Made by a program: the position numbers and the translations under genes. A stretch of 64,000 bases of DNA, from contig NZ_FXTD01000010.1 in the NCBI RefSeq assembly GCF_900182635.1, positions 62,001 through 126,000 on the forward strand, given 5' to 3'. This stretch comes from Halorubrum cibi (GTDB lineage: Archaea > Halobacteriota > Halobacteria > Halobacteriales > Haloferacaceae). Below, piece by piece: positions 24,172 through 36,795 of this stretch. Numbering within the stretch: position 1 is the stretch's first letter; each line of letters starts with the position of its first letter. The notes beneath the pieces were generated by a model. It had not been told where the DNA came from and searched no databases. It saw only the letters and a program-made list of their open reading frames with translations.

Positions 24172-24363
24172 TCAGAGCTCGAAAACGAGTCCGTAGCCGA
24201 AGAGCGCCAGGAGCCCGGTGAAAAGCGCCAGGAGCACGCGACGCTTCGTTATCCACGATCGCGTCCCGAGCGAGGACGGTCGTCCGGGTCGGTGACCGTT
24301 CCGCCGTCGAAAGGAGGTCCGGCGACCCTTCGGAACGCAGCGCTCCTCACGCCGATCGCCCAT
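24172..24363 (-). CDS. Small basic single-pass membrane protein at the end of the SipW locus
   Basis: 63 residues from ATG at 24363. A strongly basic first two thirds (RREERCVPKGRRTSFRRRNG) is followed by one hydrophobic segment (VLLALFTGLLALFGYGLVF) that ends the protein. It overlaps the acidic protein gene by 17 bp in another frame and is last in the leftward locus. The basic charge is exceptional in a halophile and could bind the acidic partner proteins. No family is recognised; the call rests on position and membrane pattern. Confidence 0.45.
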   Translation of the reverse strand: MGDRREERCVPKGRRTSFRRRNGHRPGRPSSLGTRSWITKRRVLLALFTGLLALFGYGLVFEL

Positions 24364-25447
24364 CGTCACCTCCGGTTTCGTCGCCGGTATCATCGCTGGT
24401 GTCGCCGGTGTCGTCGTCGCTTTCGTCATCGTCCGCGTCGGCGGTTCCGCCGTCGCTGCCGTCACCGTCGTCGTTCCCGTCCTCGGACGTCCCCGTTTCG
24501 TCGTCACCGCTCTCGTCGTCACCGCTCTCGACACCGTCGCCGTCGGTGGTATCGATCCCTTCGGTCTCACCGTTTTCGGTGTTCGTCGTCCCGTCATCAC
24601 CGCTCTCGTCGTCCTCGCCGTCGATCCCATCGGAGTCGTCCTCCGGTTCTGGGTTCTGCGCGTCGTCCGTTCCGTCCGTCTCGTCATCGGCGTCGTCTCC
24701 GTCGCCCTCGTCGCCGATGTCGTCGCTTTCGCTTCTTTCGTCGGGGCCATCACCGGAATCAGAGTCGTCACCGGCGTCGGAGTCATCACCGGCGTCAGCC
24801 CCGTTGCCTCCGTCTTCCCCGCCGTCACCGGCGGCGTCCTCGTCGCTTCCGGCCGTCCTCTCGTCGTTCTCGACGTCGCCGTTCTCGTCGCTCTCCGTAT
24901 CGTTCTCCGGCTTCGTCGGTTGCTCCGATTCCGTCTCGGAGGCCGTCTCGTTCGTCGATTCGTCGTCGCCGGCGGCTCCGTCGTCGGGATCGCCACCGGT
25001 GTCGGCGTCGGCATCGCTGGCGTCACTATCGCCGTCGGCGTCGGCATCGTTGGCGTCACTATCGCCGTCGCCGACGTCGTTGCCGTCTATCTCGGGGGTC
25101 TCAGCGCCTCCATCGACGGAGGTTCGGGTGGTTCCGACGCTGTTGCCCTGGCCGACGCCCTTCTTTTCACCCCGGTCGGCACCGTTTCCGTTGCCCCGAC
25201 TGGTGTCATTCTCGTCGTCACCCTCGGCCGTCTCGTTCCCGACCGTGGAGTCGTTCGTCTGCGTCGTCTGCGATCCGTTCTCCACGGAGCTCTCCTCGGA
25301 TTCGAGTTGCTCGAACTCGTCGACGCTCGCGAAGTTCCCCTGGACGGTGACCTCGTCCGAGAACACTGCGAGCGTCCCGGCTCCGCCGCCGAACCCCGCG
25401 AGTAACACGAGAACGGCGACCGTCACGACCGACGCGGGGCGGGTCAT
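24347..25447 (-). CDS. Highly acidic SipW-type surface protein with low-complexity tail
   Basis: 366 residues. One N-terminal hydrophobic segment (SVVTVAVLVLLAGFGGGAGTL) runs into LAVFSDEVTVQGNFAS, the A-x-FSDE-x-(V/F)-x-N pattern of SipW-type signal regions. There is no twin-Arg motif. The remaining 320 residues are almost only Asp, Glu, Gly, Asn, Ser and Thr in short repeats (such as DSDAGDDSDSGD and ADADGDSDASDADADTGG), so they should be disordered and strongly negative outside the cell. It overlaps the signal peptidase gene by 4 bp (ATGA). A role as a matrix or salt-binding component is inferred. Confidence 0.72.
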   Translation of the reverse strand: MTRPASVVTVAVLVLLAGFGGGAGTLAVFSDEVTVQGNFASVDEFEQLESEESSVENGSQTTQTNDSTVGNETAEGDDENDTSRGNGNGADRGEKKGVGQGNSVGTTRTSVDGGAETPEIDGNDVGDGDSDANDADADGDSDASDADADTGGDPDDGAAGDDESTNETASETESEQPTKPENDTESDENGDVENDERTAGSDEDAAGDGGEDGGNGADAGDDSDAGDDSDSGDGPDERSESDDIGDEGDGDDADDETDGTDDAQNPEPEDDSDGIDGEDDESGDDGTTNTENGETEGIDTTDGDGVESGDDESGDDETGTSEDGNDDGDGSDGGTADADDDESDDDTGDTSDDTGDETGGDDGRSA

Positions 25448-26655
25448 CGTCCCTCCTCGTCGTCGGCCTCGGCGGCCTCGGCGATCTCGTCGGGCTCGCC
25501 GGCCTCGACGACCGCCTCCGACCCGCCGTCCGCGGCGGGCGCGATCAGGGGCCGCTCGAAGATCCCCATCGGATTTCCATCGTCGGTTCCCCTCGATCCG
25601 CCGGGGCGATCGTTCTCGTGATCGTCGAAGTCCTCGAGGTCGTCACCGTCGGCGTCCGATCCGGCGTCGTCGCCCTCGGCGGGGGCGTCGCGGTCGGCGT
25701 CGCGGTCCCCGTCGTCCCCGTCGGCTCTGCCGTCTCCGCCGTCTCCGCCGTCTCCGCTGCTTCCGTCGCCCGTGTCATCTCCGCCGTCGTCCGCCGAGCG
25801 GGACAGGTCGTTGGACGGTCCCTCGCCGTCGCCGGACGTGACGAGGAGTACGCCGGCCATCAGGAGCGTCATGCCGGTTCCGACCGCGACCGCGATGGAG
25901 AGAGCGGTCTGAAGCGTGTACGCCGTGTACGCCGCGTACGGGACGAACGCCAGGAGGACGCCGACGGCCCCCTCCACCGTCCGGTTCGTCACGACGAATC
26001 CCGGCTCGTCGGCCGCGTCGGACTCGCTTTGGGCGGATTCTGTCGCGGCCGCGGCAGTCGTAGCCGTCGTCTGCGTGTCCATCGCTTCCGCGTCCGCGTC
26101 GGCGTCGACGACGGCCGATCCGGCCGCCGTCGAGTCCCCGCCGCGCCCGGTTCGAGAGCCGTAGAGGCTCCAGACCTCCGAGAGCGCGAGCAAGGCGAAC
26201 GGCAGGACGACGAGCAGGGTGAACCCCGCCGGCGAGTCGGTGAACTGGATCACGTACCCGATGTACGGGATCGAGAACGCCACCGCGCCGAGGACGTTCG
26301 AGGCGGGCACCAACGCGGAGTCCGGCCCTTCGTTGGCGTCGCCCTTCGTCTCGAAGGCGACCTCTCCGCCGGTTCCCGTCACCCCGATCACGCGGTGTGT
26401 CACCGGCACCTCGCTCTCGCCGCGGACGAACGTGATCACGTCGCCCTCGCCGATCGCCGCCGCGTCGCGTTCGTCGACGACGACCACGTCGCCGGGGGCG
26501 ATCGCGGGCGTCATGCTCGCCGTCAGGACGACGAAGCTGTACTCCGCCCCGACGACCGCCGGCACCGCGTACACCACGAAGGGCGCGACGACCGCGATCA
26601 GCAGGGCGATCCCGAGCAGGTTGGCAAAGCGTTTGAACGTGATAGGTGAGTTCAT
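25444..26655 (-). CDS. SipW-like signal peptidase I (ER/archaeal type) with membrane and acidic extension
   Basis: 403 residues. The peptidase domain covers about 1-170: an N-terminal membrane anchor, the catalytic Ser47 in VLTASMTPAIAPGD, His87 in VPVTHRVIG (His in place of bacterial Lys), and Asp106 in KGDAN. That is the Ser-His-Asp pattern of the SipW and ER group. More membrane segments follow (142-162, 228-245 and 250-275), then about 130 disordered acidic residues. It is embedded in the operon of its presumed substrates and overlaps both neighbours by 4 bp, so it is probably the dedicated processing enzyme. Confidence 0.9.
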   Translation of the reverse strand: MNSPITFKRFANLLGIALLIAVVAPFVVYAVPAVVGAEYSFVVLTASMTPAIAPGDVVVVDERDAAAIGEGDVITFVRGESEVPVTHRVIGVTGTGGEVAFETKGDANEGPDSALVPASNVLGAVAFSIPYIGYVIQFTDSPAGFTLLVVLPFALLALSEVWSLYGSRTGRGGDSTAAGSAVVDADADAEAMDTQTTATTAAAATESAQSESDAADEPGFVVTNRTVEGAVGVLLAFVPYAAYTAYTLQTALSIAVAVGTGMTLLMAGVLLVTSGDGEGPSNDLSRSADDGGDDTGDGSSGDGGDGGDGRADGDDGDRDADRDAPAEGDDAGSDADGDDLEDFDDHENDRPGGSRGTDDGNPMGIFERPLIAPAADGGSEAVVEAGEPDEIAEAAEADDEEGR

Positions 26656-28163
26656 CGTAGGTCCTCCGAGTCGCAGAGCGCGTTTTCGTCGGTAAACGTC
26701 CCGCCGACGAGTTCGTAGAGCGTTCCTCCCGATCCGTCGGAGCCGAACGCGTCTCCGATCGTAAGGACCTCCGAGCAGCTGGTGTGGATCTCCACGCTCT
26801 CCGAGGCACCTTCATCGTCGCCGTCGACGATCTCGATCGTCGTGTTCTGTCCGAGGCTCGTTCCGACGTTCCCCCACGCTTGAGAGACGTCGCTGCCGTC
26901 GGCGGTGAACGTTCCACCGGGCGCGATCGTCGCGTCCTCGAACACGACCTCGTTTCCGCCGCCCGTCCGCTGGGTGGTGACCCGGATGGTGGCGTCGGAT
27001 CCGCCGTCGTATCGGAACGTCAGGTCACGGTACCGGACGTTTCCGCCGCACTCGCAGTCGCCCGGATCGTCGTGGTCGTCATCGCCGTTCTCGCCGTCAT
27101 CGTCGACGCAGACGTCGATCTGGATGTTGCTGATTCCGGCGAGACCACCATTCCCCGGACCCTCCGGCGAGTACAGTATCTCACTCGTGTCGTTGCTCGG
27201 CGGCTCGATCGGGTACGTCTTCGTGTCGTTTCCGCCCTTGATACGGACCTCACAGAGCCGTCCGGCCGGGTCGCCGTTCGCGTCCACGAGCTCGAAGCTG
27301 ACGCCGACGGCCTCGCCGCCGTCCTTGTCCTCGACGTCGGTGACGAAGAGGTACGCGTTGCCGGCGAGTTGACCCTCGTCGATCGGGAGCCACGTCGAGA
27401 CGTCGTCGATGTCGCTGATGACGACGTCTCCGTCGATGTTGGCCTTCCCAACCGGGTCACAGTTCGGACACTCCTCCTGCGGCTCGTCACACGGTCCGAA
27501 CTCCGCGTAGGGGTTCGATCCCGCGGCGTCGTCCTCGGAGACGTGCCGGCACTGTTCGGTATAGAGCAAGAACTCGAACTCGGTCGTCCGCCCGGCCGCG
27601 GCGGCCGGCGCGTCCTCGGGAAGCTCCCAGGCGAGTTCGATCTCGATACCGTCGCCATCGGGGTCGAGACACGCGTCGCCGTCGAGGTCGTCAGCCCGGA
27701 GTCCGCCGGCGAACTCGCGGCGGAGCTCCGAGAGCGACCCGGACGGGAACACCCAGTCGTCGCCGATCTTGAGTGAAACCTCCAGCGCGTTGCCGAGCGG
27801 GTCCTGCGTCCGGGGGCAGGTCGTCGCGAACCAGAGGCGCGCCGGGTTGGTTCGAACGGAGACGTCGAACGTGACGTCGCCCCAGTCGCCGCGGTCGATC
27901 GGGTTCTCGGGCGCGTAGCTCACGGTCCCGTTCGAGACGGCACAGCCCGCGTCCCCGTTCGAATCCGAACACGACACGTCGAGTTCGACCTCGCCGGCAC
28001 CGATCTCGTTGCGCGGCAACGTCTCCCCGTCGGAGAGGTACGCGAACGTGCCCGCGCCGCTCGCGGCACCGATCGCGCCCAGTCCGCCGAGCCCGGCGAG
28101 GAGCCGGCGGCGGCTGAAGTCGGCCGGTCCGGAATCTCCTCGTCCGCTCCCGTCGGTGGTCAT
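26652..28163 (-). CDS. Tat-exported SipW-dependent protein, large Cys-containing variant
   Basis: 503 residues. The twin-Arg motif SRRRLLAGLGG (about 17-27) is followed by GAGTFAYLSDGETLPRNEIGAGEVELDV, the camelysin/TasA-type cleavage and first strand region. The first 220 residues form the beta fold ending FLLYTEQCRHVSEDDAAGSNPYAEFG. A Cys-rich joint (CDEPQEECPNC) leads to a second domain of about 270 residues (GKANIDGDVVISDIDDVSTW onward) with its own Cys cluster (CVDDDGENG, DCECGG) that I do not recognise. The ATG overlaps the stop of the previous gene and the stop overlaps the peptidase start. Confidence 0.8.
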   Translation of the reverse strand: MTTDGSGRGDSGPADFSRRRLLAGLGGLGAIGAASGAGTFAYLSDGETLPRNEIGAGEVELDVSCSDSNGDAGCAVSNGTVSYAPENPIDRGDWGDVTFDVSVRTNPARLWFATTCPRTQDPLGNALEVSLKIGDDWVFPSGSLSELRREFAGGLRADDLDGDACLDPDGDGIEIELAWELPEDAPAAAAGRTTEFEFLLYTEQCRHVSEDDAAGSNPYAEFGPCDEPQEECPNCDPVGKANIDGDVVISDIDDVSTWLPIDEGQLAGNAYLFVTDVEDKDGGEAVGVSFELVDANGDPAGRLCEVRIKGGNDTKTYPIEPPSNDTSEILYSPEGPGNGGLAGISNIQIDVCVDDDGENGDDDHDDPGDCECGGNVRYRDLTFRYDGGSDATIRVTTQRTGGGNEVVFEDATIAPGGTFTADGSDVSQAWGNVGTSLGQNTTIEIVDGDDEGASESVEIHTSCSEVLTIGDAFGSDGSGGTLYELVGGTFTDENALCDSEDLR

Positions 28164-28966
28164 TGTGACACCCCCGAGTCAGCCGAGTCAGCCGAGTCCG
28201 CCGATTCCTCGTGGTCCGGCACCGGTTCCGCGAACGGGTTGCCGTCCCACGCGCAGTCGACCGCGTAGAACTTCACGTCGAAATCGACGGAGCCGCCCTT
28301 CCCGGCGTTGCCGCCCTCGCCGATCGGGAATCTCCAGTTGAACGCGAGACAGCGGCTCTCGTCGGGTCGTAGGCAGCCGTTGTCGAGGACACCGGGATCG
28401 ACTTCGATCCCTCCGACGAGGTCGTCGTCGTCGAGTTCCGCGAGAGTTCCCGAAAAGATCCCGTCGCCGAAGGTCGGAAAGTTCGGAAAGCTCTCGACGT
28501 TCTCCGCGCCGGCACAGCCGCCGACGCCGAGGAACCCGGTGTCGTAGCGAACGGACATCTCGATCCGTTCCGCGAGCGCCTGACTCGCCGCGTCGTTTCC
28601 GATCTCCGGATCGATCTTCATCCACACCCGGACGCCGTCCGGGACGTTCTCGCCCGGATCGTCGATCCGGAGGCCGACGCTCGTCGAGCCCGCGTCCATC
28701 GGGAGGACGTTCTCCTGGTCGATGAGGCGGACCGACGCGTCGGTGACCTCGTCGCTCGGGCTCTCCCGGACGAGCTGACCGTTGTATCTGCTGCGCCAGC
28801 CGACCAAGAGCTGCGTGGGGACGTCCGACTGCGCGTAGGTATAGCTCGTGTACTGGTCCGGCGTGCTCGTCGGCCGGCCGCCGGCCATCCCGAGGGTGGC
28901 GAAGCCGACGGCTCCGATGCCCGCGAGTGCCTGCCGCCGAGTCAGATGTGTGTCTCGTTTCGTCAT
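28160..28966 (-). CDS. Tat-exported surface protein of the SipW locus
   Basis: 268 residues from ATG at 28966. The twin-Arg signal LTRRQALAGIGAVGFATLG is at about 8-26. The AYFSDE motif of its neighbours is not conserved, but the domain keeps NVPDGVRVWMKIDPE, a central beta region, CLAFNWRFPIGEGG and a degenerate C-terminal signature FYAVDCAWDGNPFAEP. The last residues are a Ser/Asp repeat (ESADSADSADSG). It is probably a divergent member of the same fold and is first in the tightly overlapping part of the operon. Confidence 0.7.
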   Translation of the reverse strand: MTKRDTHLTRRQALAGIGAVGFATLGMAGGRPTSTPDQYTSYTYAQSDVPTQLLVGWRSRYNGQLVRESPSDEVTDASVRLIDQENVLPMDAGSTSVGLRIDDPGENVPDGVRVWMKIDPEIGNDAASQALAERIEMSVRYDTGFLGVGGCAGAENVESFPNFPTFGDGIFSGTLAELDDDDLVGGIEVDPGVLDNGCLRPDESRCLAFNWRFPIGEGGNAGKGGSVDFDVKFYAVDCAWDGNPFAEPVPDHEESADSADSADSGVSQ

Positions 28967-29288
28967 TCGTGTTCCGTGGTCGGCTCCGGACGGCCGGTTC
29001 GTCGATCGTCTCCACGCGTCCTCGGTACGTATGTATGCGCCTCCTACCCAAGCGGTTCGGATACCGAACCACATTGATTGGGCCATTGAACGACCGTCAA
29101 GGGATGCCTATCAGGTAGGTCGTCCCCCGCTCTCGTCGTCGATCGTCTCCGAATCCCGTCGTCGGTCGCGTCCGTCGCGATCCGATACGGGAATCCCACC
29201 GGCGGAGTCGAACCGCCGTCTCGACCGTTCCAACCGAGGAATTCGGGTGGGAGGGGGAATCAGGTTCCGAAGAACCCGTTGTGCGTGA
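28967..29288. promoter_or_regulatory. Intergenic control region inside the SipW locus
   Basis: 322 bp without a gene. It contains a perfect inverted repeat GGTTCGG-ATA-CCGAACC at 29054-29070, a TATA-like TACATACG stretch near 29025-29035 for the leftward gene starting at 28966, and the tRNA-like element listed separately at 29194-29252. It probably starts a second transcript for the genes to its left. Confidence 0.5.
29194..29252 (-). other. tRNA-like intergenic element, site 1
   Basis: Read leftward, TCCCACC (29252-29246) pairs with GGTGGGA (29200-29194) in a perfect 7-bp acceptor-like stem. Inside are a small hairpin TTCC-TCGGTT-GGAA and a T-arm mimic GGCGG-TTCGACT-CCGCC (29217-29201) with a canonical T loop. 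No anticodon arm is present. Similar elements occur at 30927-30981 and 33740-33782, always in gaps of this locus. Confidence 0.6.
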
Positions 29289-30902
29289 TCAGGCGGTCCC
29301 GGTCGCGTTCCCTCCGTTCGTCACGTTGCCGTCGTTCGTTCCGTTCGAGTCGTCGGGGGCGTACGGATTCGTTTCGCCGTCGTTGTGGCGGCACTGTTCC
29401 GCGGCGAAGCCGATCGCGAACTCCACGGAGTCGGTCTGAATCTCGTTGCCGACCGTCGTGGGAAGTTCCCACTCGAAGCCGAAACAACGGGTCACGGAGT
29501 TGGTGAAACAGATCCGTTCTTCCGACTGTACGTTGGCGTCCAGTTCGATACCCGCTTCGAGCGCGGTCATCACCTCGCGTAGCGTACCCTCGGCGATGAC
29601 CTCCTCGCCGGTGAGGATGACCGAGGAGATCTGCGAGTAGATGTCGTCGAGATCCGTGCCGGTCGGCGAGTCGTAGTAGAGTGTGGTTCCGTTGCTCGAA
29701 CTCGCCATGTCTATGAGCGTGTTCTGGGCGGTGCTTCCGTTACTGACACCCAACCCGATCGTGAACACGGTGATTCCATCGTTTTTCGCGTCCGTTGCCG
29801 CGTCCTTCGCGTTCTGGACGTGGTCGGAACCGGCACGATCCGACTCGTTCGGCTCGCCGTCGCCGAGCAGAATGATGACCTCGTCGACGCCACTTCGACC
29901 GTTGTCGTTGAGCTCGTCGGCCGCCAGATCGACACCGGCGTCCATCATGGTGCGTCCGGCATCGGAGATCCCGGCGGGCTCGGGCTGGAGATACGTTTCG
30001 ACGTTCGAGTGGGTACTCGTGAGGCCCTGTCGGAGCTGCCCGGTCGATTCGAACGTCACGAGGCCGACTCGGTCGTTGGGGCCGAGGTTCTCGACGAAGT
30101 CCAGCGCCGCCGCCTTCGCCTGTTCCATCTTGCTCCCGGGACCGCCTCCCATGGAGCCGGAGTTGTCGATCGAGAGCATCACGTCGACGCCCTCGCTCTC
30201 CTCGTCGCGCTCTCCCTGGTGGACGTTGTCGCAGTTGTCGTCGTACCAGATCTTCGCCCGGATCGAGTCGGCGAGCTGCCCGTCACCGTCGGGGTCGTCC
30301 GTGGGATCCCCCATCTCCTCGAGCGCCTCGATTTCGGGTTCGGTGTAGCCGTTCTGGTTCTCGTCCGTGAGCATCCCGCCCATCCACATGTAACCGGGAT
30401 TGTCGTACAGGTGGGTGCTGAAGGTGACCTCGCCGTAGTCGCCGGGTTTCACGTCGCCGATGCGGATGAGCGCGTCCTCGAGGTCTCCCGCGTCGATCAG
30501 CTCGTCGCGCTGGAATCCCTCACCTTCGCCGGTCTCGGGGTCGTAGACGCCGTTCGCGCCGATGACCCAGTCTTCGGCTCCGGGGTACTCGGTCCGGTTG
30601 GGAACCTGATCGAGGAGGTACACGCCGGTGTCGTCGTCGGTCGGTTCCATGTCCTCGTCGACGAACGTGGCGTTCGGGTAGTTCTCCTGGAGCTCCCCGA
30701 GACGTCCGGGACCGCCCCGGTACGTCATCCGGTAGTCCATTTTCAGATCCAGCTCACCGGCGGTGAGCGTGTTGCCTTCGAACGACTCGTCGTCGCTGAA
30801 GTAGGCGGTCGTTCCGAGTCCTGCTCCCGCGGAGGCGACGCCCACGGCCCCGAGGCCGGCGAGCATCTTGCGCCGCGAGAGTCCGATTCCTTTGTCAGTC
30901 AT
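29289..30902 (-). CDS. Tat-exported SipW-dependent protein with inserted vWA domain (1)
   Basis: 537 residues from ATG at 30902. Twin-Arg motif LSRRKMLAGLG (8-18), then GTTAYFSDDESFEGNTLTAG (30-49), the SipW/TasA-type signature. The beta fold runs to KIWYDDNCDN near 217-226. A vWA domain is inserted at about 239-430, with MIDAS DNSGS at 246-250, the Thr region AGRTMMDAG near 315-323 and ILLGDGEPNES. The fold then resumes (RCFGFEWELPTTVGNEIQTD) and ends with FAAEQCRHNDGETNPYAPDD. The tail is Asn/Gly/Thr-rich with N-glycosylation-like sites. It is likely an adhesive or capping subunit of a surface filament. Confidence 0.82.
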   Translation of the reverse strand: MTDKGIGLSRRKMLAGLGAVGVASAGAGLGTTAYFSDDESFEGNTLTAGELDLKMDYRMTYRGGPGRLGELQENYPNATFVDEDMEPTDDDTGVYLLDQVPNRTEYPGAEDWVIGANGVYDPETGEGEGFQRDELIDAGDLEDALIRIGDVKPGDYGEVTFSTHLYDNPGYMWMGGMLTDENQNGYTEPEIEALEEMGDPTDDPDGDGQLADSIRAKIWYDDNCDNVHQGERDEESEGVDVMLSIDNSGSMGGGPGSKMEQAKAAALDFVENLGPNDRVGLVTFESTGQLRQGLTSTHSNVETYLQPEPAGISDAGRTMMDAGVDLAADELNDNGRSGVDEVIILLGDGEPNESDRAGSDHVQNAKDAATDAKNDGITVFTIGLGVSNGSTAQNTLIDMASSSNGTTLYYDSPTGTDLDDIYSQISSVILTGEEVIAEGTLREVMTALEAGIELDANVQSEERICFTNSVTRCFGFEWELPTTVGNEIQTDSVEFAIGFAAEQCRHNDGETNPYAPDDSNGTNDGNVTNGGNATGTA

Positions 30903-31021: not shown

Positions 31022-32758
31022 CTATGCGGGACTGATCGTCTCGTCGGCGAACGGATTGTACGTGCCGTCGTTGTGGCGGCACTGCTCCGCGTAGAAGTCC
31101 AGGTCGAAGACGACGGAATCGCCCTGGATCTCGTTGCCGACTTCGTAGGGGAGGTGCCACTCCAACGCGATACAGCGTGTGTCGGAGTTGGGGTAACACT
31201 GCCGCCCCTCGCGGTTGCGGTCGGAGTCGAGCGGATAGCCGCCAGCGATGCCGTCGACCACGTAGTCGTCGAGGAACCCGTCCGAGGTAACGTTCGGACT
31301 CTCCGTGAGGAGGTCGTACAGCGACCCCTCGAATATCGGCTGTTCGCCGCCCGCGGTGAAGCCGATCTCCTCGGCGACGCTCGTGATCGGATCCGTGTTC
31401 GGGTCGGTCGGTCCGTTGATAGCCGCATCGATGTCGGTGTCGAGCACGAGCATGAACCGGTGGTTTCCGGGGAGCGTGCTGATCTCCTCGAGGACGTCGA
31501 CGGAGTTCGGCGGCGTCCCGAACCCGACGATCAGGTATCTGTCGACCTCTCCGCCCTCCGATCGGAGATTGTCGCTGGCCGCAGCGAGGAACTGGCTCGT
31601 ATCGACGTTGATCCCGTTCGTGATCAGGACCATTACCCGTTCATCGTCCTCGGAACATTCGGCGAGCGCATCGGCCCCCGCCTGGATCGCGTTCGGTAGG
31701 TCGGTACCGCCCTGTATCTCGTCCTGATAGTCGATCGTCTGAAGGCCCGTGGAGTCGTTGTAGCTTCCACCGTCGGTGCCGACGACGTCGTTCACGTCGC
31801 TCGTCGGCAGGAGGACGGTATCCGCGGTCGTCGTCCAGTTGGTGAGTCCGACGCTGAACGGGGCGGTGTCGCCATCGCTGCTTTCGGCTCCGTTTCCGGT
31901 GTCGAGTCGATCGACGTACGTTTCGAGCGCCTCGATCAGGAGTTTATCCTTATACTCGGTGACGGATCCCGTGGGTGCCGAACTTCCCATCGAATCGGTG
32001 TTGTCGACGACGAACTGGATACAGACGTCGCTCCCCTCGTCGAAGAAGTTGTCACAGTCGTCGTCATACCAGAGCGTGGCCTCGATCTCCTTCGCGAGCT
32101 GTGCTTCCGCCTCCGCTAACGCGATCACGTCGTCGTCGGTGAACTCCTCGCCGAGTTCCTCGGCGTACCGCTCGACGAGCGCCTCGCGTTTGGGGTCGTT
32201 CAATTCGCCGACGGTGTGTTCGAAGCCGCTCGCGTTGAGCCAGAGGTACGCCGGGTTGTCGAAGACGTGTTTGCTGATCGTGATCTCGCCGCGGTCTCCG
32301 GGCTTGACGTCGTCGAGGTCGATGACGGGGCCCACGAACTCGTGATTTCCGCTTCCGTCGGTGTCCTCGAAGCTCGCGAACTGGCCGCGGTAGGCCTCCT
32401 CGATCGCGTCCTCGTCGGCATTGGCCGGAAGTCCGACCAGCGTCGGGTCCTCCTCGAGCTGGAATCGCGTGTAGATCGGGTCCTGCCGGTCGTCGCCGTC
32501 CAGGTCGGGGTAGGCGTTGACCGGCTCCCACGTCGTGTGGTCTTCGGGGTCTTGCCCCTCCAGACCCATGTAGTAGCTCTGTTGCCAGTCCATCCGGAGC
32601 TCGACCGCTCCGGCCTCTATCGTGTTGTCGGTGAAACCCTCCTCGTCGCTGAAGAACGCGGTGGTGCCGAGGCCCGCGCCGGCGCTCGCGACGCCGATGG
32701 CCCCGAGGCCGCCGAGCAGCGTGCGGCGGGAGAGTCCCGTGATTTTCTTGTCTGTCAT
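31022..32758 (-). CDS. Tat-exported SipW-dependent protein with inserted vWA domain (2)
   Basis: 578 residues. Twin-Arg LSRRTLLGGLG (9-19) and GTTAFFSDEEGFTDNTIEAG (31-50) open the protein. The beta fold contains DDVKPGDRGEITISKHVFDNPAYLWL and reaches EATLWYDDDCDN near 227-237. A vWA domain follows directly (about 246-445) with MIDAS DNTDS at 252-256, a Thr variant of DxSxS, and GGTDLPNAIQAG as the second metal loop. The fold then resumes (RCIALEWHLPYEVGNEIQGD) and ends FYAEQCRHNDGTYNPFADE. The insertion point is the same as in the gene at 29289, so this is a paralogue. Confidence 0.82.
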   Translation of the reverse strand: MTDKKITGLSRRTLLGGLGAIGVASAGAGLGTTAFFSDEEGFTDNTIEAGAVELRMDWQQSYYMGLEGQDPEDHTTWEPVNAYPDLDGDDRQDPIYTRFQLEEDPTLVGLPANADEDAIEEAYRGQFASFEDTDGSGNHEFVGPVIDLDDVKPGDRGEITISKHVFDNPAYLWLNASGFEHTVGELNDPKREALVERYAEELGEEFTDDDVIALAEAEAQLAKEIEATLWYDDDCDNFFDEGSDVCIQFVVDNTDSMGSSAPTGSVTEYKDKLLIEALETYVDRLDTGNGAESSDGDTAPFSVGLTNWTTTADTVLLPTSDVNDVVGTDGGSYNDSTGLQTIDYQDEIQGGTDLPNAIQAGADALAECSEDDERVMVLITNGINVDTSQFLAAASDNLRSEGGEVDRYLIVGFGTPPNSVDVLEEISTLPGNHRFMLVLDTDIDAAINGPTDPNTDPITSVAEEIGFTAGGEQPIFEGSLYDLLTESPNVTSDGFLDDYVVDGIAGGYPLDSDRNREGRQCYPNSDTRCIALEWHLPYEVGNEIQGDSVVFDLDFYAEQCRHNDGTYNPFADETISPA

Positions 32759-32806: not shown

Positions 32807-33715
32807 TCAGTTCCCGCCGTCGTCACCGGAGACGTCGCTCTCGTTGGCCGTATCGTCGCTCTCCGCCTCCTCCGCGAACGGGTCGTCGTTGTGGCGGCAC
32901 TGCTCGGCCGCGAAGTGGACGTCGCCGCTGAAGGAAGCGCCCTGGACGAGGTTGCCGGGAGACATCGATTCCGTGATATCGAAGGAAGTTCCGTCGACTG
33001 CGACCTCCTCGCCGATGTCCCCGTGCGAGGGTAAGTAGAGGTAGACGCAGACCTCGACGGAGTCGGCCGCCAGCTCCGCGCCCTCGACGTCGGACTCACA
33101 GGGGAGGTGACAGTACTCGACGACCGGCTCGTCGTTTTCGACGCCGGCGTACGCGTGGATCAGTCCGCCCTCGTCCCACTCGTCGATGAGTTCGCCGAGG
33201 GTGCCCTCGAAGACGATCTCTTCGCTGTCGCCCGCCTGCTGGTCGTCGATCGTGACGACCGCGAGCATGTACTCGCTGAGCAGACCGGAGGCGTCGACGT
33301 GGTCCACACCGTTCTGGTTGCCCGTCGACTCGTCGCCGTCGAGCGTGATCTGGACGTAGCCGGGGTTGTGTTTCACGCAGACGTCCCAGCAGTACTTGTA
33401 GGAGTCGCCGGGCTTCGCGTCCGTGATGTCGAGGAAGCCGTCGACGACTTCGATCGTGGCGTCGTCCTCTTGGGCCGCAGCCAGCATCGCGTCGAACGTC
33501 TGTTCGTCCGGCCCGATCCCGTCTTGGTCGACGACGTGGGTCGACTGCGTGACTTCGAGCTCGAACTGCCCCGCGGTGATCGTGTTGTTCTCGAAGCTCT
33601 CCTCGTCGCTGAAGTACGCGGTCGTCCCAAGGCCCGCACCGGCGGAGGCCACGCCCATCGCCCCGAGCCCGACCAGCATCTTACGCCGCGAGAGTCCGAT
33701 TGTATCGTTTTCCAT
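32807..33715 (-). CDS. Tat-exported SipW-dependent surface protein
   Basis: 302 residues. Twin-Arg LSRRKMLVGLG (8-18) and GTTAYFSDEESFENNTITAG (30-49) give the TasA/camelysin-type start. A single beta fold follows with DAKPGDSYKYCWDVCVKHNPGYVQI, a central EIVFEGTLGELIDEWDEGG and an unusual C-terminal FSGDVHFAAEQCRHNDDPFAEE. There is no vWA insertion. Six Cys residues could form disulfides. The leader between this gene and the one before contains tRNA-like site 3 and a TCCCC-ATT-GGGGA hairpin. It is a likely main filament subunit. Confidence 0.8.
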   Translation of the reverse strand: MENDTIGLSRRKMLVGLGAMGVASAGAGLGTTAYFSDEESFENNTITAGQFELEVTQSTHVVDQDGIGPDEQTFDAMLAAAQEDDATIEVVDGFLDITDAKPGDSYKYCWDVCVKHNPGYVQITLDGDESTGNQNGVDHVDASGLLSEYMLAVVTIDDQQAGDSEEIVFEGTLGELIDEWDEGGLIHAYAGVENDEPVVEYCHLPCESDVEGAELAADSVEVCVYLYLPSHGDIGEEVAVDGTSFDITESMSPGNLVQGASFSGDVHFAAEQCRHNDDPFAEEAESDDTANESDVSGDDGGN

Positions 33716-33809: not shown

Positions 33810-35174
33810 TCAGCGGAAGTCGATCCCCATCCAGTCTTGCGTGGTGTAGTCGCCCTCAGAGCCCTCGAATCGGACGTTCCCGGTCACAGTCACGCCAGTG
33901 GTCGTGTCCACGCCCGGAATGGCGAGGTACATCGCGCCACCCGAGGAACTGACCATCGACGGCGAGGCGGGAGACCCGTTCACTTGAACGTCTTTAACGA
34001 CGGTTTCGACGCCGTTCCCGCTCGCACTGTACGCAGTGAGTGCGACGTCGACGGTCGACGGGACGCCACCCTGCCACTCCGGATCGCCGGTGGCTGAACC
34101 GTTCGCCGTGCCGTCGGTGACATCAGTGTCAACTACGGTCCGACCGTTGATCTCGAGCGAGGCCGTGGCGGGTGAACTGCCGGTGTCGATCTGAGCGACG
34201 AACCCGACGTCCTGGTTCGCGGGGAATACGTCTCCGAGGTTGCTACCGAACACGTCCTGGTCTTCGACGCCTGGGCTGTCACCGTGGACCTGGATCTCGC
34301 CGCGTCCGGATCCACCGCGAGCGAGTGCCTGCATGTTCAGCGCCTTCTCGAAGGAGATCGACGAGAACCCGTCACCCGTCGCGTACGGGCTCGCCGGGTT
34401 CGCGTTGTGGCGTTCCTGTTCCGCGTAGAACTCGAAGTCGAACTCCACGGCGTCGGTCTGGATCTCGTTTCCGACCTCGGTGGGGAGCACCCAGTCGATA
34501 CAGAGGCACGGGCCCTGCTGGGTGCTTCCGTCCTCGCTGGGCGGGTACGCGCCGGAGTCAGTCCCGCCGTCGACGAAGAATCCGAACTCGAGATCGTCCG
34601 CGAGGTCCGCGAGCGTGTACCCCTCCGGGTTGTTCATCTCACGGATCACGGTGTAATCCTCCGTTTCCGTGTCGTATTCGCAGTACGAGACCGTGACCAG
34701 AATCGACTCGCTCAGTTCACCCTCCCCCTCGCCGTCGTTCGGCGAACCGATCGTCCCGGCTCCGGTAGCGTCATCTTCCGCCTCCGGCTCGGTTTGGCCG
34801 TTCTCGTAATCGATCGCTCCGCTTTCGCTACCGATCCAGAGCCACGCGGGGTTGTCGACGACCTTCGGACAGAACACCAATTGGCCGCTGTCGCCGGGTT
34901 TGACGTCGGAGAGTTCATATGAGTAGTCGGAGGGCATCCCGTTGATCGTGCCCGAATCGCCGCCGCTTCCCAGACGGTTACCCTGATCATACGAAGTCTC
35001 GTAGTCGACGATCAGGTCGAGTTCGCCCGCGGTGAGCGTGTTGTCGGTGAAGCTCTCCTCGTCGCTGAAGTACGCCGTCGTTCCGAGTCCCGCACCCGCG
35101 GAGGCCACGCCGATCATGCCGAGGCCGCCGAGCATCTGCCGCCGCGAGAGTCCGAAGTTGTTGTTATCGTCCAT
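33810..35174 (-). CDS. Tat-exported SipW-dependent protein with extra C-terminal beta domain
   Basis: 454 residues. Twin-Arg LSRRQMLGGLG (9-19), then GTTAYFSDEESFTDNTLTAG (31-50). The first domain shows SDVKPGDSGQLVFCPKVVDNPAWLWIG, then CIDWVLPTEVGNEIQTD and FYAEQERHNANPASPYATG, where the Cys of the family motif is replaced by Glu. A second domain of about 185 residues (from SSISFEKALNMQALARGG) is rich in beta-type repeats and has no recognised family. It is the first gene after the main promoter and probably the most expressed surface subunit. Confidence 0.8.
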   Translation of the reverse strand: MDDNNNFGLSRRQMLGGLGMIGVASAGAGLGTTAYFSDEESFTDNTLTAGELDLIVDYETSYDQGNRLGSGGDSGTINGMPSDYSYELSDVKPGDSGQLVFCPKVVDNPAWLWIGSESGAIDYENGQTEPEAEDDATGAGTIGSPNDGEGEGELSESILVTVSYCEYDTETEDYTVIREMNNPEGYTLADLADDLEFGFFVDGGTDSGAYPPSEDGSTQQGPCLCIDWVLPTEVGNEIQTDAVEFDFEFYAEQERHNANPASPYATGDGFSSISFEKALNMQALARGGSGRGEIQVHGDSPGVEDQDVFGSNLGDVFPANQDVGFVAQIDTGSSPATASLEINGRTVVDTDVTDGTANGSATGDPEWQGGVPSTVDVALTAYSASGNGVETVVKDVQVNGSPASPSMVSSSGGAMYLAIPGVDTTTGVTVTGNVRFEGSEGDYTTQDWMGIDFR

Positions 35175-35561
35175 TGGTTATCCCTGGCGTCTTCGGCCAG
35201 TACCCCTCCCTTAGCGGAAGGGGGGATAGTTACGACTCGACACGTCGGATCCTAACGCCGCCATCGGCCGACCGAACCCGACCATCGACCGATATAATCG
35301 CCCGTTCGGCCGAGATGCGCAGATTTTCGGGACTTTAGAAGATCGACCGAAGAGAACGGATGGCGGGCCATACCGGCTGCCTCGGACTGCCTACCGGACT
35401 CGTCGGTACACCCTACCGCTCTCTCTGACACTCCCTACCGGATCCCGTGGGATCGCCTACCGTGGATCGGGGCGGATCGGCCGTTTTCGATAGGTAACAC
35501 GTGACAGACAGTATGGCGCGCATACATATCCTCCCAGTTGTCGTTTACGTTCTCGAACGAG
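35175..35561. promoter_or_regulatory. Divergent promoter region between the SipW locus and its neighbour regulator
   Basis: About 390 bp without a gene. For the leftward locus there is a TATA box ATTATAT (minus strand, 35298-35292) and a leader of about 90 nt with two hairpins (35203-35225, and CTGGC/GCCAG at 35184-35200). For the rightward gene a CATACATATC box lies at 35520-35529. Between the two promoters is the phased array at 35371-35462. Confidence 0.6.
35371..35462. repeat. Five TACCG motifs spaced 21-22 bp apart
   Basis: TACCG begins at 35371, 35392, 35414, 35436 and 35458. Spacings are 21, 22, 22 and 22 bp, two helical turns, and four of the five are CCTACCG. The rest of each unit is only weakly alike (GGAC and CCC near the end). 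It lies about 75 bp upstream of the leftward TATA box. A regulator binding one face of the helix is the simplest reading. Confidence 0.65.
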
Positions 35562-36101
35562 GTGTTTCCCATTTCCCTACAGATCCGATCCGACTCGCTC
35601 CCGGAGACCGTCATCCACGACGTGCTCTCGAACAGCCGCCGGAAGAACGCCCTCCGCGAGCTGCGGACGCGTGGCGGGGCGGTCTCGGTCAGGGAGCTCT
35701 CCGAGGCGATCGCCGCCGACGAGACGGGCGAGTGGCCCGCCCCGCGCTGCGTGCGCGAGAGCGTGTACGCCTCCCTCCACCAGACGCACCTGCCGCGGCT
35801 CCACGACCTCGGCGTCGTCGAGTACGACCGCACGCGCAAGGAGGTCCGCGCGTGCCGGGGCGCACGCGACGTGGAGCGGTACATGACCGTCGTGGCCGGC
35901 TACGGGTTCACCTGGACGGAGCTGTACCAGATGCTCGGCGTCGTGACGCTCTGTGTCGTCCTCGCGGCCCAACTCGGCACTCCGGTGATCGGCGCGATCG
36001 ACCCGCTGCTCTGGACGAGCGGCGCGCTCGCGGCGTTCGCGGTCGTGACCGTCGCCCAGCTCTGGGCGGCCTACCGGCTCTCGATGCCGCTCCCGCGGTG
36101 A
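35562..36101 (+). CDS. Winged-helix regulator with two membrane helices (DUF7344-like)
   Basis: 179 residues from GTG at 35562, chosen because the TATA-like box at 35520-35529 would place a transcript start close to it; an earlier TTG at 35538 is possible. The first 110 residues read as a winged-helix domain (IHDVLSNSRRKNALRELRTRG, VSVRELSEAIA, SVYASLHQTHLPRLHDLGVVEYD). Two membrane segments follow (about 125-147 and 153-176). It points away from the SipW locus and shares its control region, so it is a candidate regulator of it. Confidence 0.72.
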   Translation: MFPISLQIRSDSLPETVIHDVLSNSRRKNALRELRTRGGAVSVRELSEAIAADETGEWPAPRCVRESVYASLHQTHLPRLHDLGVVEYDRTRKEVRACRGARDVERYMTVVAGYGFTWTELYQMLGVVTLCVVLAAQLGTPVIGAIDPLLWTSGALAAFAVVTVAQLWAAYRLSMPLPR

Positions 36102-36266
36102 CGTTCGGATCTGATCCCTTCCGACTCCGTCGTGCTCCGAGTGGTGGCTCAATTGGGCGCGCGTTCGGCTGAAACGGTTGTTATATTTCGAGTGCTAGTG
36201 GTACGGGTGTTTCGTGAGTGATCGGATCGATGAGAACGGGATCGTTGCTGGGGCGGTGAGTTCTTT

Positions 36267-36439
36267 CAAAGCCCCAGCCGGCTCCGGTCGAGGGCCTCGC
36301 TGCGGTCCTCGTCGCTCACTATGTTCGCTCCTGCGGTCCTTACGTCGGCCGTCTTCCCGGAGCCGACTGCCCCTTTGAGTCCCACCCCACCCCGCAACCG
36401 CCCCGCAACCGCCCCGCACCTCACGCCTCCCCAGCCTCG
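36267..36439. repeat. Dispersed intergenic repeat, copy B
   Basis: Blocks shared with copy A (21692-21900) appear in the same order and strand: AAAGCCCCAGCCG at 36268, GCGGTCCTCG at 36302, GGTCCTTACGTC at 36345, the 23-bp block at 36365-36387 and the identical 28-bp block at 36412-36439. Here no palindromes are inserted before the 23-bp block; an 11-bp tandem (CCCCGCAACCG twice) separates the last two. No gene is evident between 36102 and 36795. Confidence 0.75.
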
Positions 36440-36482
36440 CTACTCGCGGTTTCACCGCTCGCAGCGTCCCTCGCGGGCTCTC

Positions 36483-36655
36483 GCCGGCGGCGTTGCCGCC
36501 GGCTGTCAGAGGGACCTCCGGTCCCTCGCTACTCGTGCCCTGTCGGGCACTCGGAGGCGCAGGGCGAGAGCGAAGCTCTCGCTTGAAGCCGGCGGCAGAG
36601 CCGCCGGCGACAGCGAGGCGCTACGCGCCTCTAGCAGCCGGCGCAAAGCGCCGGC
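36483..36655. repeat. Array of seven perfect short hairpins
   Basis: Seven perfect inverted repeats follow each other in 173 bp (stem length; loop): 36483-36503 (9 bp; GTT), 36509-36527 (8; TCC), 36535-36550 (6; TGTC), 36564-36582 (8; GAA), 36588-36608 (9; AGA), 36615-36631 (7; TAC) and 36637-36655 (8; AAA). The sixth plus its flanks (36611-36643) repeats 33 bp of copy A (21794-21826) with a single difference. The stems differ in sequence from each other, so it is not a simple tandem repeat. Confidence 0.8.
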
Positions 36656-36795
36656 GACGCCACCGCGATCGCTCGTTGCTTAGGCTATACTGAGCGATCG
36701 CGATCCGTCATCGGTTCACCGGTGAGCGAACGCACCCATCAGCCGGAAATATCAGAGATGTCCCGTCAGCCGAGATCGATCCGCTCGGCTCCCGG

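Follow-up and report, generated by a model that had tools for sequence, protein, structure and literature searches.

An array of five short words (35371-35462 of the window, that is, of the whole 64,000-nucleotide stretch of DNA that was analysed) lies in the gap that separates a DUF7344 gene from a divergent operon of SipW-type genes. Judging from its sequence and conservation, this array is very probably a real strip of docking sites for a regulator. The best explanation, and one that we consider probable, is that it is an operator with its sites on one face of the DNA, which would be bound cooperatively by the DUF7344 protein and would control the SipW/TasA-like operon and probably the DUF7344 gene too.

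The TACCG array

On the + strand, the word TACCG starts at 35371, 35392, 35414, 35436 and 35458, at steps of 21, 22, 22 and 22 bp, as the preliminary description of the window had correctly reported. The five words occupy 35371-35375, 35392-35396, 35414-35418, 35436-35440 and 35458-35462, and the whole array 35369-35462 (+). Copies 2-5 read CCTACCG, and copy 1, where CCA precedes TACCG, reads CCATACCG. The word itself is not enriched, with 101 matches in the 64-kb window versus 95 expected; a chain of five copies at 21/22-bp steps is, according to a simple word-frequency estimate, expected 1.5e-10 times per 64 kb. In effect, what is improbable is the phased chain and not the frequency of TACCG itself.

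It had also been suggested that phased arrays be sought elsewhere in the genome. In the 3.18 Mb of this genome, three copies of TACCG separated by gaps of 14-20 bp are matched three times, by overlapping matches that all lie at the array, and the reversed control word is matched seven times. With tighter gaps of 15-17 bp, the same three matches are obtained and none for the control, and such three-copy arrays are found at this site only. In an ordinary tandem repeat, the whole unit is alike between copies; here, the identity of the spacers between units has a mean of 0.49.

The flanking genes

The array sits in the 387-bp gap that separates the divergent DUF7344 and SipW-type genes. On the − strand, an operon runs from 35174 down to about 24347 and encodes at least five proteins with a SipW-dependent-type signal peptide, together with a signal peptidase I. 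Its first gene (33810-35174; TIGR04088) is followed by others of the same type at 32807-33715 (TIGR04088, with a weak camelysin match, PF12389, that is under the cut-off), 31022-32758 (TIGR04088, with a weak VWA match) and 29289-30890 (with a VWA domain), by a secreted-protein-like ORF without a family match at 28160-29086, and by a further SipW-dependent-type gene at 26652-28163 (TIGR04088, DUF7467). The signal peptidase I gene lies at 25444-26655 (TIGR02228; a SipW-like model comes second, under its cut-off), and an ORF with no family match, whose N-terminus appears SipW-like when read by eye, at 24347-25447. None of the operon proteins matches a known DNA-binding family, and the DUF7344 protein is the only one of DNA-binding type that was recognised in the locus.

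The DUF7344 gene occupies 35562-36101 on the + strand; its GTG start was chosen by conservation, with an alternative TTG at 35538. In Pfam, the protein matches PF24035 alone (E 7e-26, 90.8 bits versus a curated cut-off of 27.8, residues 19-96). Its AF2 model, with a mean pLDDT of 72 and mostly 73-87 in the winged-helix part, comprises a winged helix and two C-terminal helices; according to the model, the winged helix ends near residue 97 and the first transmembrane helix begins at about residue 118. The C-terminal helices are hydrophobic, with hydropathy peaks at 125-143 and 149-167. Structurally, the model is most similar to haloarchaeal RosR (Z 12.0), with Z 9-10 for many other winged-helix proteins. 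Foldseek alone gave weak winged-helix matches only, and a sequence search of solved structures returned no relative. The region downstream of the gene (36150-36700) contains many direct and inverted GC-rich repeats, as read by eye.

DUF7344 genes are present in 96 of the 99 genomes sampled of this haloarchaeal family, where a single genome often has many of them, and no mention of DUF7344 was found in the literature searched; neither was a paper that links SipW with haloarchaea. All 18 SipW clusters with visible flanks, from 14 genomes, adjoin a DUF7344 gene, and one more lies at a contig edge. In addition, six genomes of the same genus without SipW hits are also without the close DUF7344 type, and they keep other DUF7344 genes.

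Conservation of the array in close orthologues

Eleven close orthologues, with proteins 75-99% identical and the divergent SipW gene kept, were compared in their intergenic regions, and the phased array is present in all of them. Four (L004, L005, L006 and L190) have five copies at 21, 22, 22 and 22 bp, and a fifth (L192) has the same pattern with one word changed to TACTG. Two others (L189 and L191) have four copies, that is, exactly one 22-bp unit fewer, and the intergenic gap and the distance to the DUF7344 gene are also shorter by 22 bp. In the remaining four (L193, L194, L195 and L196), the copy number varies and the steps are 21-23 bp, with one of 45 bp across a degenerate copy in L194. 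Loss of the phase or motif in such relatives, which the preliminary description had named as the observation that would speak against it, is not what is found: the phase is retained in all 11, with the reservation that one or two words are degenerate in a few.

Among the four orthologues with the unchanged pattern, the positions of the CC and TACCG letters are identical in 168 of 168 comparisons, while the spacers are identical in 230 of 354 (65%) at a constant length. At the level of sequence, a motif that stays fixed while its spacers drift at a set length is a phylogenetic footprint. Other genera have arrays of their own at the same place, with six copies at two loci, five at a third and seven at a fourth, and one locus (L015) carries a set in inverted orientation at 22 bp. 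The proposal that the motifs lie on one DNA face, as expected for a regulator array, is strongly supported by this maintenance of phase in close orthologues and distant clades alike.

Helical spacing in regions shared by DUF7344 and SipW genes

A total of 127 DUF7344 loci were collected, 76 of them with a SipW-type gene divergent upstream. In a motif-free analysis, identical 5-mers were counted lag by lag in a non-redundant set of 63 paired regions. The counts peak at lags of 21 (160), 22 (173) and 31-33 (102, 91 and 71), and again at 42-44 (64, 109 and 80) and 63-65. The shuffled background has a mean of 38 and a standard deviation of 8, which gives peak z-scores of up to 17, these simple scores being inflated by phylogenetic non-independence. 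The peaks persist when a single locus is taken from each cluster of DUF7344 proteins at <60% identity (19 loci; z 15.5 at 21, 11.2 at 22 and 6.4 at 43). The regions upstream of 48 unpaired DUF7344 genes show multiples of three only, as in coding DNA, and no helical lag peaks. In 141 other intergenic gaps of the same genome, lags of 22, 32, 43 and 44 are not raised, and an excess at 21 bp is due to coding sequence (multiples of 3) and to one 21-bp tandem repeat. This repeat (CGAG...; L364:1574-1661) lies in an intergenic gap and is unrelated to DUF7344.

At least four identical 4-mers at steps of 20-23 bp occur in 22 of the 76 paired regions versus 0.3% of shuffles, and in six of the 141 control gaps, which are shorter on average. 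In the paired regions, TA words other than TAC/GTA are phased as well, and so are words without any TA (z 9.8 at 21).

Across 293 genomes, the phased three-copy pattern matches 76 genomes and an off-phase control with 25-27-bp steps matches 51. Most of what such raw counts pick up is tandem repeats and coding sequence, so only arrays with diverged spacers are informative; of the seven arrays of at least four TACCG copies picked on this basis, six are located immediately upstream of a DUF7344 gene that is paired with SipW. An array in another genome (G019) was rejected as a tandem repeat, as its spacers are alike (0.73) and neither DUF7344 nor a SipW motif is found nearby, and one in genome G172, with diverged spacers (0.41) and steps of 21, 21 and 20 bp, may be coding. 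A scan of genome contigs for four copies gave, among the matches listed, mostly bacterial records and one Halorubrum, and is uninformative on function.

A recognisable TACCG array is missing from some SipW-DUF7344 regions. For instance, the paired regions of one clade (L021, L022, L027 and L239) have no TACCG arrays and instead contain other words in phase, such as TAATC; the recognition word may have shifted in this clade. The genome of the window has, in addition, a second SipW cluster with a DUF7344 gene of its own (G000:C3:63882-65082), and in its intergenic region AACG, present four times at 20-23-bp steps, replaces TACCG.

A lattice anchored at the SipW promoter

Upstream of the SipW genes, a conserved block at 35227-35248 (− strand; TAGTTACGACTCGACACGTCGG on the + strand), with the conserved sequence TAGTTACG at 35227, is probably the SipW core promoter and serves here as the anchor from which distances are given. 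TATAAT at 35294-35299, although a TATA search would pick it first, was rejected as the SipW TATA box, as it is not conserved. For the DUF7344 gene, the conserved CATACATA at 35521-35528 (+) is a probable TATA box. Between 35172 and 35226 (− strand), what is probably the 5′ leader of this operon is predicted to fold into a pair of neighbouring hairpins immediately ahead of the start codon (-23.5 kcal/mol, z -2.4), and its sequence is mostly conserved in orthologues.

The preliminary description gave the five TACCG words correctly and overlooked a second phased array, of [TG]AAC[GC] words, closer to the SipW genes. Its sites are TAACG at 35253-35257 (+26 from the core block), GAACC at 35274-35278 (+47) and a degenerate TAATC at 35295-35299 (+68) that is TAACC or TAACG in orthologues, all on the + strand. 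Words of this class are found at +26, +47/48 and +68/69 both in orthologues and in paralogues.

Measured from the SipW core, TAC[CT] words are found at offsets of 102, 123, 134, 144, 154, 165, 176, 187, 198, 209, 221 and 231. Individual clades use different subsets, for instance 102-134-166-198 in a three-turn clade, 102-123-144-165 in a two-turn clade and 144-165-187-209-231 in the clade of the window. Over 116 such sites, the vector strength R relative to the core is 0.81 at 10.66 bp, with 89% of the sites within 1.5 bp of one lattice versus 28% expected; the AAC sites follow the phase of this lattice to within 1 bp. When whole loci were rotated at random as blocks, which keeps the relatedness within each locus, the lock to the core promoter had a p of about 0.004-0.005 with seven or four clades. 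TACCG-class words rank at the top of all 5-mers for phase relative to both promoters, the phasing to the DUF7344 TATA box being somewhat looser (nR2 30 versus 36 for the SipW core). As read from these sequences, the TAC[CT] sites and the [TG]AAC[GC] array are one lattice of about 205 bp, with a period of about 10.7 bp, that is anchored at the SipW core promoter. At +12 there is a weak half-site in inverted orientation (0.45 versus 0.27 expected); it is perfect in only one of 72 TACCG sites, hints at dimers and is not decisive.

A membrane-held regulator as the probable reader of the array

The preliminary description had put forward the adjacent membrane winged-helix protein as the first candidate for binding. 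This candidate fits, as the DUF7344 protein is the sole one of DNA-binding type recognised at the locus, is encoded divergently from the SipW genes and has a predicted winged-helix fold; the interpretation as a whole is partly supported. We consider it likely that DUF7344 binds the array words. The likely recognition helix is almost invariant in paired and unpaired members, and for this reason an attempt to name the binder from covariation between motif and helix was abandoned.

The CCTACCG words are all on the same side of the helix, and in the mechanism that we propose, copies of DUF7344 would bind them side by side and cooperatively. The two C-terminal helices would hold the protein at the membrane, from where mainly the membrane-facing side of the DNA could be reached, and this tether would be the reason for sites on one face. 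Less certainly, binding would activate the operon of SipW/TasA-like surface proteins and would also adjust the DUF7344 promoter itself, in a form of autoregulation. Activation is favoured over repression, with modest confidence, because all of the sites are upstream of the SipW core promoter.

A broader reading can be offered tentatively. SipW-paired DUF7344 proteins may be regulators that are tethered to the membrane and keep promoter DNA aligned lengthwise with it, so that the operator would be a lattice, about 19 helical turns long and locked to one face, in which the number of sites and the step (two or three turns) are free to evolve and the side of the helix is not. Several haloarchaeal genera would share this grammar.

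The array could instead be a one-face operator for an unlinked regulator, for instance of Lrp/AsnC or RosR/PadR type, that controls both the SipW operon and DUF7344, with the latter merely a target. Archaeal Lrp operators do show the same one-face pattern at two or three turns (PMC2995911), unpaired DUF7344 genes are without upstream arrays, and the weak inverted half-site would suit a dimer. Nevertheless, TACCG arrays with diverged spacers are nearly confined to SipW-DUF7344 pairs, which would leave a global regulator with this single type of target, and each visible SipW cluster has a DUF7344 neighbour of its own. We regard an unlinked regulator as unlikely.

It is much less likely still that the words position or bend the DNA, through a histone, another chromatin protein or phased TA steps, without any sequence-specific regulator. 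The helical period, the TA steps within the words and the phasing of TA words outside TAC/GTA are what bending would produce, but words free of TA also show the phasing, what is conserved is a 7-bp word repeated at two or three whole turns instead of a one-turn TA rhythm, the spacers drift freely, and the pattern is not seen in the other intergenic regions of the genome. Finally, a functionless relic of a 22-bp tandem duplication, or chance, is hardly credible and is already contradicted by the footprint in the orthologous sequences. The equal units and the 22-bp losses are what slippage would give, but spacers differ between units (0.49) and between orthologues (down to 65%, with the motif at 168/168), independent clades hold the lattice with other steps, and the chance expectation is about 1e-10.

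If DUF7344 is indeed the protein that reads the array, a concrete operator sequence, its geometry and a likely target operon are now proposed for one branch of this family. This would open to experiment the old question of how a transcription factor anchored in the membrane locates its promoter and holds on to it, and would provide a way into the control of archaeal clusters for TasA/camelysin-like surface fibres. The lattice, which is kept across clades by helix face and not by position, is also a clear example of selection acting on helical phase.

Comparison with known systems

The closest winged-helix fold to that predicted for DUF7344 is RosR of Halobacterium salinarum (PDB 6qfd and 6qh0; Z 12.0 over 89 residues, rmsd 2.2). 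The identity is 16%, and the match is to the winged helix only and leaves out the membrane part of DUF7344; a shared fold is not membership of the RosR family. EarA of Methanococcus is, as far as the available parts of its descriptions go, also an archaeal winged helix-turn-helix protein with four copies of a short word at a surface-structure operon. That word is TACATA, and these parts do not mention a membrane anchor (PMC6396743, PMC13286277). CsmR (PMC13286277) was rejected as a related regulator, as it is Lrp/AsnC-like and binds TATCA-N4-TGATA.

ArnR and ArnR1 of Sulfolobus acidocaldarius are membrane-held HTH regulators of a surface-structure operon, for which both boxes are needed (PMC6396743). 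Like the modelled DUF7344 protein, they are one-component regulators with an N-terminal HTH and two C-terminal transmembrane helices. They differ in having a HAMP and sensor region and in their TCGAC-N5-GTCGA inverted-repeat boxes (PMC6396743). In DUF7344, the winged helix is separated from the membrane by only about 20 residues, too few to accommodate such a region, and the presumed sites are CCTACCG direct repeats.

As for the DNA, archaeal Lrp-type regulators such as Ss-LrpB and Ptr2 bind cooperatively to, and wrap, operators in which several sites on one face are spaced by two or three turns, the arrangement that is also found here. In targets that Lrp proteins activate, the sites lie upstream of the core promoter, as they do here, and the autoregulation of these regulators is also proposed for DUF7344 (PMC2995911). 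Lrp sites are imperfect palindromes for Lrp dimers (PMC2995911), in contrast to the direct repeats of CCTACCG, with their weak inverted half-site, next to a DUF7344 gene. By the features compared, the present case appears to belong to neither class and, by analogy, would work like an Lrp operator and ArnR combined.
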